Part shown: piece after piece, positions 1 through 3,525 of the stretch
Layout of the letters: every line of letters starts with the position of its first letter
Position numbering within the stretch: the stretch's first letter is position 1
Assembly (NCBI GenBank): GCA_903882745.1
Contig: CAIRYG010000013.1
Coordinates: 1-64,000, forward strand
DNA from: an uncultured Gemmatimonadota bacterium
Lineage (GTDB): Bacteria; Gemmatimonadota; Gemmatimonadetes; Gemmatimonadales; Gemmatimonadaceae
DNA: 64,000 nt
Reading direction: 5' to 3'
Translations under genes and position numbers: made by a program
The notes under the pieces: generated by a model
Told to the model about the DNA's origin: nothing
Databases searched by the model: none
Seen by the model: the letters and a program-made list of their open reading frames with translations, nothing else

Positions 1-130
1 ACCAGTCGCCCGACCAGTCGCCCGACCAGTCGCCCGACCAGTCGCCCGACCAGTCGCCCGACCAGTCGCCCGACCAGTCGCCCGACCAGTCGCCCGACCA
101 GTCGCCCGACCAGTCGCCCGACCAGTCGCC
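1..130. repeat. 12-bp tandem repeat, about 10.8 copies
   Basis: Ten exact copies of accagtcgcccg fill positions 1-120 and an eleventh copy diverges after ten bases at position 130. The array may extend left beyond the window. It lies in the reading frame of the beta-helix protein that follows, where each unit encodes Thr-Ser-Arg-Pro, so gain or loss of a unit would keep the frame. There are no spacers, so it is not a CRISPR array. Confidence 0.95.
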
Positions 131-2448
131 TGTTCCTCCGCCTCGCCACAGCCGTCGCCGTCGCGCTCATCGCGATAGCACCGGCCCACGCCGACGCACA
201 GGCCAAGAAGAAAGCCCCGGTCAAGAAGCAGACCACCAAGAAGCAGGCGCCGGCCAAGAAGCCCACGGCCGCGAAACCAACCCCGACCACCGACCTCAAG
301 CGCGGACTCGTCATCACCAAGTCCACCCGCATCACCCCCAAGAGCTACCGCCTCACCGCCGCCACCTCGCTCGACTCCGCACTGATCGTCGTCAAAGGGG
401 ACAACATCACCCTCGACCTCACCGGCGTCACGATTAATGGCGCCGAGCCGTTCTCCGACCCCGATCGCTTCGCCGGCGTCGCGATCCGCGTGGAAGGGGG
501 CAAGCACGTCACCATCATCGGCGGCACCATCCACGGCTTCCGCGTCGGCATCATGGCCCGCAACACCAAAACGCTCACCATCGCCGACGCCAACCTCAGC
601 TACACCTGGAAGCCGCGCCTCTACTCCACCGTCGAACACGAGTCGCTCGCCGACTGGCTCTCCTTCCATCACAACGAACAAAAAGAGTGGCTCCGCTTCG
701 GCGCCGCCCTCTACCTCGACGGCGTCAGCGGTGGCGACATCAAAAACGTCACCGCCGAACACGGGATGAATGGACTGATGATGGTGAAGTCCGACCACCT
801 CATGGTCCACGACAACACCTTCGCCTACAACTCCGGACTCGGGGTCGGGATGTACCGCGCCACCGACAACACACTCCTCCACAACACCCTCGACTACAAC
901 GTCCGCGGATTCTCCGAGGGCTTCTACCGCCGCGGCCAAGACTCCGCCGACTTGCTCATGTTCGAGCAGTCCAGTCGCAACGTCGTGGGCTACAACTCCG
1001 CCACCCACGGCGGCGACGGTCTCTTCCTCTGGGCCGGCCAAAGCACCATGGACACCGGCGCCGGCGGTGCCAACGACAATCTCTTCTTCGCCAACGATTT
1101 TTCCTACGCGCCCACCAATGCCATGGAACTCACCTTCAGCCGCAACACGCTGATCGCGAATGTGGCCAAAGGGAGTGACTACGGTCTCTGGGGCGGCTAC
1201 AGCTTCGACACCAAAATCGTGAGCAACTGCTTCGTGCGAAACCGCACAGGCATCGCCATCGAACACGGGCAAGACAACTTCATCACGGGCAACCGCTTCG
1301 AAGGCGAGCGCACCGCCATCCGTCTCTGGGCCGACAAAATCGAACCGTCAGACTGGATGTACCCGAAAAAGAAAGACACCCAGAACCGCAACAACAGCAT
1401 TACCGGCAACATGCTCAGCCGCAATCACGTCGGCTTCAACATCGCCAACGCCCGCGGCCTCCAACTCGCCAACAACACACTCGCCGCGGTCGACACAGCC
1501 TTCGTCATGAAGGACACACTGGGCCTTCGCAACACAGGCAACGCACCCATCCAAGCGGTCGACGACGCGGCCGACCCGTGCGCCACGATGGGCGCAATCC
1601 CCGCCGAATTCGACCGGCTCGCACCAGCGGTCGACGGGATCGCCAGCACGATCCCCGTGTCGCCGATGAGCCAGCGTCCACGGAGCGCGATCATCGTGGA
1701 CGACTGGGGCCCCTACGACTGGCGCGCCCCCAAACTCTGGCCCGTCGACAGCACCCACAGCGCTGCCGTGCGTCTCGCCGTACTCGGCCCCGACGGAAAG
1801 TGGAGTGTCGTCTCGCGTCGCGGCATCGCAGGACTCTCGGCGACCACCGGCGTCACCGGCGACACCGTCACCGTGACGCCAGCGCCCGACGGCGCGAGCG
1901 ACTGGGAACTCGTCCTCGAGTACAAAGGCGCCGCGACCCTTTCCCCCCGGGGCGAGTCCAAGGCGGCGAATGTCGCCCAGCGCTTTTCGTATCGTATGTT
2001 CGAACCCGTCACCGATTGGCGTGTGAAGTTCTACGCCTGGGCCGACAGCACCGACCCGCGCACCAAGAGCGAGGCCTTCAATCGCGTAGTACAGGGCACA
2101 CCGCTCACCACCGCGCACACCTCGCGCCTCGACTACCTCTGGGCTCGGCCAACGATCACGGGACTGCCGTCGTCCAAGTGGGCGCTCGAGGCCACAAGCA
2201 GTGTCACCGTCCCCGCGGGAACCCACACCCTCCGCACAATCAGCGACGATGCCGTGCGCGTCTGGGTCGACGGCGCACTGGTGATCGACAACTGGGTGCC
2301 TCACGAATCGGCGGTCGACGCGGTGCCGATTTCTGCAGGGAAACACGAGCTCCGCGTGCAGTATGTGCAGGTGGACGGCTGGACCGAACTTCGGCTCGAG
2401 ATCGTGAAGGGCGCGCAGCGCGCCGCAGGATCGCCGGGCCCGCATTGA
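1..2448 (+). CDS. secreted right-handed beta-helix protein with C-terminal PA14-like domain (5' end outside window)
   Basis: The frame is open from base 1 to the stop at 2446-2448, 815 residues visible. Residues 1-43 are TSRP repeats, followed by a hydrophobic signal-peptide core (residues 44-60) ending APAHADAQ, then a Lys/Pro/Thr-rich linker to about residue 98. No ATG, GTG or TTG precedes the signal core in frame, so the start lies upstream or at the atypical CTG at 130. Residues about 115-530 show the short repeating N-x-I/L patterns of NosD-like parallel beta-helix proteins, for example NTFAYNSGLGVGM and GNRFEG. Residues about 671-810 resemble a PA14 domain (ISDDAVRVWVDGALVIDNW). By family such proteins bind or cleave polysaccharide at the cell surface; no catalytic residues could be assigned. 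An internal ATG at 490 lies inside the helix and is unlikely to be the true start. Confidence 0.85.
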   Translation, partial: TSRPTSRPTSRPTSRPTSRPTSRPTSRPTSRPTSRPTSRPTSRLFLRLATAVAVALIAIAPAHADAQAKKKAPVKKQTTKKQAPAKKPTAAKPTPTTDLKRGLVITKSTRITPKSYRLTAATSLDSALIVVKGDNITLDLTGVTINGAEPFSDPDRFAGVAIRVEGGKHVTIIGGTIHGFRVGIMARNTKTLTIADANLSYTWKPRLYSTVEHESLADWLSFHHNEQKEWLRFGAALYLDGVSGGDIKNVTAEHGMNGLMMVKSDHLMVHDNTFAYNSGLGVGMYRATDNTLLHNTLDYNVRGFSEGFYRRGQDSADLLMFEQSSRNVVGYNSATHGGDGLFLWAGQSTMDTGAGGANDNLFFANDFSYAPTNAMELTFSRNTLIANVAKGSDYGLWGGYSFDTKIVSNCFVRNRTGIAIEHGQDNFITGNRFEGERTAIRLWADKIEPSDWMYPKKKDTQNRNNSITGNMLSRNHVGFNIANARGLQLANNTLAAVDTAFVMKDTLGLRNTGNAPIQAVDDAADPCATMGAIPAEFDRLAPAVDGIASTIPVSPMSQRPRSAIIVDDWGPYDWRAPKLWPVDSTHSAAVRLAVLGPDGKWSVVSRRGIAGLSATTGVTGDTVTVTPAPDGASDWELVLEYKGAATLSPRGESKAANVAQRFSYRMFEPVTDWRVKFYAWADSTDPRTKSEAFNRVVQGTPLTTAHTSRLDYLWARPTITGLPSSKWALEATSSVTVPAGTHTLRTISDDAVRVWVDGALVIDNWVPHESAVDAVPISAGKHELRVQYVQVDGWTELRLEIVKGAQRAAGSPGPH

Positions 2449-2465
2449 GCGTGAGAGGCACACGA

Positions 2466-3467
2466 ATGTCACATCATCGATCGGGGCTCACCGCGCTCGT
2501 CGCCGGCGCGCTCGTTGCCGGCGCACTCGCGCTGCCCAGCGCTACCGCACGCGCGCAAGGCATCGCCTTCTTTGCGGATACAACGCTGCTCGAGACCCCA
2601 ACCGGTTTCCTGCGCGGCTCCATCATGATGCCATTCCGGGTGGGGAAGTTTCCACTCGTGGTGTTCATCAGTGGCTCCGGTCCCACCGATCGGGACGGCA
2701 ACTCCATGGGCCTGCCCGGCAAAAACAACGCGCTTGGGATGCTCGCCCAAGCGCTCGCCGAACGCGGCATCGCCTCCGTGCGCTATGACAAACGCGGCGT
2801 GGCCGCGAGTGCTCGCGCGGCGACGAGCGAGCAGGAGCTTCGCTTTGAGATGTATGCCGACGACGCCGCGGCATGGGTCAAGAAGTTCCGCGACGACAAG
2901 CGCTTCAGCACGATCATCGTCGCCGGGCACAGCGAGGGGGCAATGCTTGGGATCCTCGCCGCGCAACGTGCCCCAGTCGACGGCTATGTCTCAATCGCTG
3001 GCGTGGCCCGCCGGGCGGACGCGGTGCTGCATGACCAACTCGCCGCCGGGCTCCCCAAGCCCGTGGCCGACCAAGCCGATGCCATTCTCGCGAGTCTCGC
3101 CGTAGGGAAGGCCGTTCCTGTGCCGCGCGCGATGCCGCTGTCAGCGGTGTTCCGCGCCAGTGTGCAGCCGTACATGATCTCGTGGTTCGCCTGGGACCCT
3201 GCCGTGGAGTTGGCGAAGCTAAAAATCCCGGTGTTGATCCTTCAGGGAACTGCTGACATCCAAGTGGCGATGTCCGAGGCAGATTCCTTACTCAAGGCCG
3301 CGCCCTCGGCGACGCTCGTGAAGGTCGACGGTATGAATCACGTGCTGAAGGGCGTCGTGGGCGATCAGGCGGCGCAGCTCAGGAGCTACAGCGATCCGAC
3401 CCTTCCGTTGGTCGCGCAGTTGGTGGACGCGATCGAAAAGTTTGTGAAGGAGATCCACGCACCGTAA
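2466..3467 (+). CDS. secreted alpha/beta hydrolase
   Basis: 333 residues starting at the ATG after AGAGG and 17 bases downstream of the beta-helix gene, so probably co-transcribed. A signal peptide with a duplicated LVAGA motif ends near ATARAQG (residue 32). The alpha/beta-hydrolase core shows the oxyanion-side ISGSGPTDRDG, the nucleophile elbow GHSEG (Ser156), a likely acid Asp264 in GTADIQV and a likely base His292 in GMNHVLKG. This is the pattern of serine esterases and peptidases acting outside the cytoplasm. The substrate cannot be told from sequence. No lipobox is seen. Confidence 0.85.
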   Translation: MSHHRSGLTALVAGALVAGALALPSATARAQGIAFFADTTLLETPTGFLRGSIMMPFRVGKFPLVVFISGSGPTDRDGNSMGLPGKNNALGMLAQALAERGIASVRYDKRGVAASARAATSEQELRFEMYADDAAAWVKKFRDDKRFSTIIVAGHSEGAMLGILAAQRAPVDGYVSIAGVARRADAVLHDQLAAGLPKPVADQADAILASLAVGKAVPVPRAMPLSAVFRASVQPYMISWFAWDPAVELAKLKIPVLILQGTADIQVAMSEADSLLKAAPSATLVKVDGMNHVLKGVVGDQAAQLRSYSDPTLPLVAQLVDAIEKFVKEIHAP

Positions 3468-3525
3468 CGAGCCTTTTCCCCAGCACGAAACGCGCGACGG
3501 TCCGACCATCTGACGAGGAGCGACA

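Follow-up and report, generated by a model that had tools for sequence, protein, structure and literature searches.

The nearest precedent for repeats within a signal-peptide coding region is given by the opa genes of Neisseria, whose leader-peptide CTCTT repeats, as far as two accounts describe them, lie in the signal-peptide coding region and bring about phase variation (PMC3899988, PMC3960869). The locus reported here shares with opa the location of its tandem repeats, in the part of a gene for an exported protein that encodes the signal peptide; however, the 5-base opa units are described in these accounts as switching the frame on and off, whereas the unit here has 12 bases, a multiple of three, and keeps the frame within the n-region. 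For a long charged extension, the nearest precedent is the ESPR of autotransporters, with signals of more than 50 residues in which the extension stands before an ordinary n-h-c signal (PMC2805444). Such an extension is common to ESPR and to the n-region studied here, but according to the same account ESPR has N and H regions of its own and a conserved pattern in a subset (PMC2805444), whereas the present extension consists purely of TSRP repeats, holds no second hydrophobic stretch and is absent in the close relative L045. In addition, no type V translocator or two-partner domain is found in the protein by Pfam. The TSRP array is a coding minisatellite, that is, of a known kind in an unusual place: like intragenic VNTRs it has perfect units with a length that is a multiple of three, differs from a close relative and lies in a low-complexity protein region, and it differs from them in standing directly after the start codon, inside the signal-peptide n-region. 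By coding minisatellite we mean perfect or near-perfect tandem units of at least 10 bases inside an open frame, with copies that differ between relatives, and here at least 11 full units stand against a single TSR and zero TSRP in L045. Within a narrow literature search on signal-peptide tandem repeats and minisatellites, n-region expansion and Gemmatimonadota repeats, none of the matches listed describes an in-frame n-region array.

The window, namely the whole stretch of DNA analysed, covers 64,000 nucleotides of an uncultured Gemmatimonadota bacterium, and its left edge is the end of contig C13 in a genome of 14 contigs. At this edge TRF reports a perfect array of ACCAGTCGCCCG with period 12, 10.8 (10.83) copies and 100% matches, a run length far beyond chance (Table 1). 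From base 1 on, frame 1 reads (TSRP)10-TSR-LFLRLATAVAVALIAIAPAHADA and meets no stop codon before the one at 2448. In this frame ATG, GTG and TTG are all absent from the end of the array to base 490, and a CTG is located at 130, exactly where the array ends; the start is invisible within the window because the left edge is the contig end. The original prediction of a tandem 12-bp TSRP array in frame just before the signal core is thus confirmed by TRF and by the open frame. Its count of eleven units corresponds, within the window, to 10 full units and a further 10 nt; 11 full units plus 10 nt (11.83 copies by TRF) are found on the overlapping contig C9.

Table 1. Features of the array-bearing gene, in window coordinates
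Feature	Position	Strand	Basis and remarks
Tandem array of ACCAGTCGCCCG, 10 full units + 10 nt	1..130	+	TRF; TSRP repeats in signal-peptide n-region; extends left onto C9
Hydrophobic signal-peptide core LATAVAVALIAI	142..177	+	Kyte-Doolittle mean 2.77
c-region APAHADA, candidate AxA-like cleavage sites APA, AHA, ADA	178..198	+	Motif scan
Lys/Pro/Ala-rich linker, variable too against L045	199..291	+	Alignment
Mature part: right-handed beta-helix (PF13229, PF05048) and C-terminal PA14	292..2448	+	Pfam; AlphaFold; Foldseek

Contig C9 matches bases 1-133 of the window on its minus strand; its end, reverse complemented, equals these bases exactly, and of the end-overlap lengths tested, 51-400, no other gives an exact match. 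Going upstream, C9 supplies one further unit and then ATGACTCCTCGCCGC in frame, with a start ATG 15 bases, or five codons, before the first unit. The joined precursor has 824 aa and reads MTPRR-(TSRP)11-TSRLFLRLATAVAVALIAIAPAHADA..., in other words MTPRR-(TSRP)11-TSRLFLRL-core. The ATG overlaps the TGA stop of an upstream ORF of 140 residues (ATGA), which encodes a DCC1-like thiol-disulfide oxidoreductase (PF04134, 74.1 bits, cut-off 27.8), and on reading the sequence no Shine-Dalgarno-like GGAGG is visible before it. This ATG is probably the start that is used. Actually, the original prediction had named a start left of the array as its alternative and had proposed to look upstream for the start codon and the total copy number, and C9 supplies the start codon, an ATG kept in L045, and a minimum for the copy number. 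Neither of the two findings that it would have counted against translation of the array is seen: an in-frame ATG lies upstream, though a CTG does stand at 130 and might be used, and the upstream frame is open through every unit to the ATG. The copy number is given as a minimum because the assembly breaks at the repeat, as is expected of assemblies to judge from one account (PMC6868369); the break falls inside the array, and the comparison between relatives covers one genome per species. The joined N-terminus matches the Pfam PT disordered repeat (PF04886) with 28.9 bits against a cut-off of 26.2, while the window part alone scores 22.8 bits, below this cut-off; the match is a label of composition, not of function. 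Besides the full DCC1-like copy adjoining the join, partial and diverged copies with 87-95% identity are seen nearby at C9:1372-1580 and at C8:254-440, and a broken stretch that reads as glycosyltransferase-like lies between the copies on C9, forming a local patch of gene fragments.

From outside this assembly, the join and the start are supported, at the level of sequence, by L045 (JAPLKT010000147.1, from the Gemmatimonadetes MAG LacPavin), since it holds the same gene order, the same ATGA overlap and MTPRRTSR on a single contig. L045 is the single relative locus found in the contig scan, with 93% protein identity over 718 residues and a DCC1-like gene identical at 414 of 423 bases. Its start ATGACTCCTCGACGCACCAGTCGC (MTPRRTSR) runs straight into the hydrophobic stretch MTPRRTSRRLLRLTTAVATAVAAALITLAPAQVDA, and the array is absent; as far as can be seen from this one close relative, the array would be specific to the present lineage. 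On the whole, 33 of 61 genomes (this one counted) have some match to the protein. The N-termini of 18 near-full-length homologues fall into three groups: in 12 the nearest start codon precedes the core by 3-16 residues, in five a start lies at the scored core or within it, and in one no start is seen ahead of the core. TRF lists no array at the N-terminus of any beta-helix gene over 68 loci with 266,259 bases, these being beta-helix, dipeptidase and TPR loci from the relatives together with the homologues of this genome. The unit was also considered as a mobile or widespread element, which is rejected: of 395 genomes of the phylum, this one alone contains the three-unit pattern when at most 3 mismatches are allowed, and the two-unit pattern, with at most 2 mismatches, occurs in two of 61, this genome and G056, the latter with one single chance-like site.

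We consider, with a probability of about 70%, that the array arose by recent expansion of an in-frame minisatellite in an n-region that tolerates it, and that Sec export proceeds through an ordinary core. The ancestral start would have resembled the MTPRRTSR of L045, directly before the hydrophobic stretch, and 12-base units would have been gained in this lineage by replication slippage or unequal recombination, as the perfect units and the array-free relative suggest. One possible seed of the expansion is a pair of TCGCC occurring 12 bases apart around the first ACCAG, where, on reading the sequences, L045 has TCGAC at the first place. Translation would begin at the ATG of the joined contigs, probably coupled to the DCC1-like gene via ATGA, and export would still depend on LATAVAVALIAI and the AxA site. 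The frame is kept because the units have 12 bases. The insertion would be tolerated because the n-region lacks structure and is removed by cleavage, and because the 12-base steps keep the frame, and its effect on export may well be small. That the array is recent and variable is suggested by the comparison with one close relative.

The signal itself agrees with the prediction of a long, positively charged and Pro-rich n-region: 56 residues with a net charge of +15 lie before the best 12-residue hydrophobic window, compared with 16 residues and +5 in L045, and the Kyte-Doolittle mean of that window is 2.77 here and 2.34 in L045. A simple hydropathy and motif scan, as distinct from a trained predictor, finds a basic n-region, a hydrophobic core and an AxA-like site, the last by what we take to be the cleavage rule. 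The twin arginine, which we take to be the mark of Tat, stands directly before the core in L045 (TSRRLLRL). Sec is considered the probable route here because this twin arginine is not kept (TSRLFLRL), which is a motif argument and not a predictor result. The locus thereby offers a natural n-region grown by some 40 residues without loss of frame, which could help to find out what length and charge Sec tolerates.

Two special causes of the array were considered and rejected. The fold of the start region is better than that of its dinucleotide shuffles (z -4.97); however, when the unit is permuted with its composition unchanged, the resulting coding-strand arrays are as stable in 54 of 200 trials as RNA and in 56 of 200 as DNA, showing the hairpin to be a by-product of periodicity, with no special role as cause or function. 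As for a loss of mismatch repair, MutS_V is above cut-off in all 19 genomes searched and MutL_C in 16 of the 19, this genome included in both cases; because MutS and MutL are present, no such lesion accounts for the several arrays in this genome.

Below we report these other arrays. Eight exact terminal overlaps are found among the 28 contig ends, and four of the eight lie in long tandem arrays, the TSRP array included, with TRF matches of 99-100% for all four. The C5/C14 ends carry a 12-base array giving in-frame AGGG repeats in a dipeptidase-like protein, and the C1/C4 ends a 15-base array giving in-frame IPVPA repeats in the linker before a TPR-like domain. The fourth, at C2 and the right end of C13, is a 10-base array of about 14 copies on each side (C13:67307-67443 and C2:282881-283019), which has no credible gene and stands in intergenic sequence just after a stop codon. 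The coding assignment of the C5/C14 and C1/C4 arrays rests on homologues, the names dipeptidase and TPR coming from sequence reading and not from a family search: the dipeptidase query has matches in 18 of 18 genomes of the genus, with an identity of at least 65% in 12 of these, and the TPR query likewise in 18 of 18. The units of the three coding arrays are 12, 12 and 15 bases and only that of the intergenic one is 10, though selection on the frame cannot be proved from as few as three coding arrays. For the AGGG array, 4.4 copies in the close relative L045 stand against a minimum of 11 in this genome, and the IPVPA array is absent in that relative. In one more species of the genus this TPR linker holds (APAG)6, again an array of 12-base units but a different one. 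Three of the four breaks have TRF scores of 218-284 on both sides and C1/C4 has 186 and 231, against a largest score of 172 (a 33-base unit in 3.2 copies) in 14 internal samples of 20 kb. Arrays are over-represented at contig ends because long arrays break assemblies, which is an effect of ascertainment, and in genomes of this sort an unstable coding array can lie hidden at a contig break. The right ends of C6 and C7 carry repeats around CCCCACACGCGTGGGGA that are presumably CRISPR-like.

The reading that survives next best is an adaptive one, in which the number of copies sets the length and charge of the n-region (one Arg more per unit) and hence the rate of export or translation, with the frame intact. 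A unit that preserves the frame, the step from 16 residues and +5 to 56 and +15, and perfect repeats, which would imply a high potential for slippage, all agree with such tuning, but the case is one gene, L045 and the other homologues have ordinary signals without an array, and like arrays occur in unrelated places. Because these other long in-frame arrays, in the dipeptidase-like protein and the TPR linker, point to general expansion and not to an export-specific device, tuning of export, which the original prediction had raised as a possibility, is not favoured and seems unlikely. A further proposal, a little more doubtful, is that of a dial, by which slippage would add or remove one TSRP, and with it one positive charge, so as to spread graded rates of export or translation of one secreted protein of carbohydrate-binding type across the population of a lineage with several expanding in-frame arrays. 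If copies varied and mattered, the array would do by degrees what the opa switch does as on or off.

Compared with the expansion in a tolerant n-region, it is quite improbable that the array is an untranslated 5' leader and that initiation takes place at the CTG of position 130, giving MFLRLATAVAVALIAIAPAHA with a standard short signal peptide. The place of this codon exactly at the array end, and the ordinary signal peptide that it would yield, have to be weighed against the rarity of CTG as a start codon, the CGC of L045 at the aligned codon, the frame open through every unit, and the in-frame upstream ATG with a stop-start overlap conserved in L045. The least probable reading is an assembly artefact or a join of two unrelated contigs. 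In its favour, the array stands at two contig ends and assemblers, by one account, fail at repeats (PMC6868369), degenerate DCC1 fragments adjoin the join on C9, and C9 and C13 come from the same assembly and hence are not independent. Against it, the repeat borders on unique sequence in each of the two contigs, a single frame runs through the joined flanks, and L045 shows this gene order on one contig.

The product is probably a secreted carbohydrate-active or carbohydrate-binding protein, as predicted from its domains and model. Apart from PT, the Pfam families in the protein are Beta_helix, NosD and PA14 only. For the part encoded from base 292 onwards, AlphaFold gives a model with a mean pLDDT of 83.6 and a pTM of 0.81, and the 60 PDB matches that Foldseek lists for this model, at E up to 0.001, include AlgE4/AlgG epimerases and PA14 sugar-binding domains, with low TM-scores for the whole model; a sequence search of the PDB with an E limit of 0.01 gives two matches, which fall on the PA14 part. 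Downstream, an alpha/beta hydrolase gene (window 2466-3467) is missing at this place in L045 (window 2452-3505 against L045 5161-5193), which is due either to an insertion here or to a loss in L045. The signal peptide of the next gene (ALVAGALVAGALAL) also holds a small in-frame repeat, with a 15-base unit in 2.5 copies at window 2492-2529.
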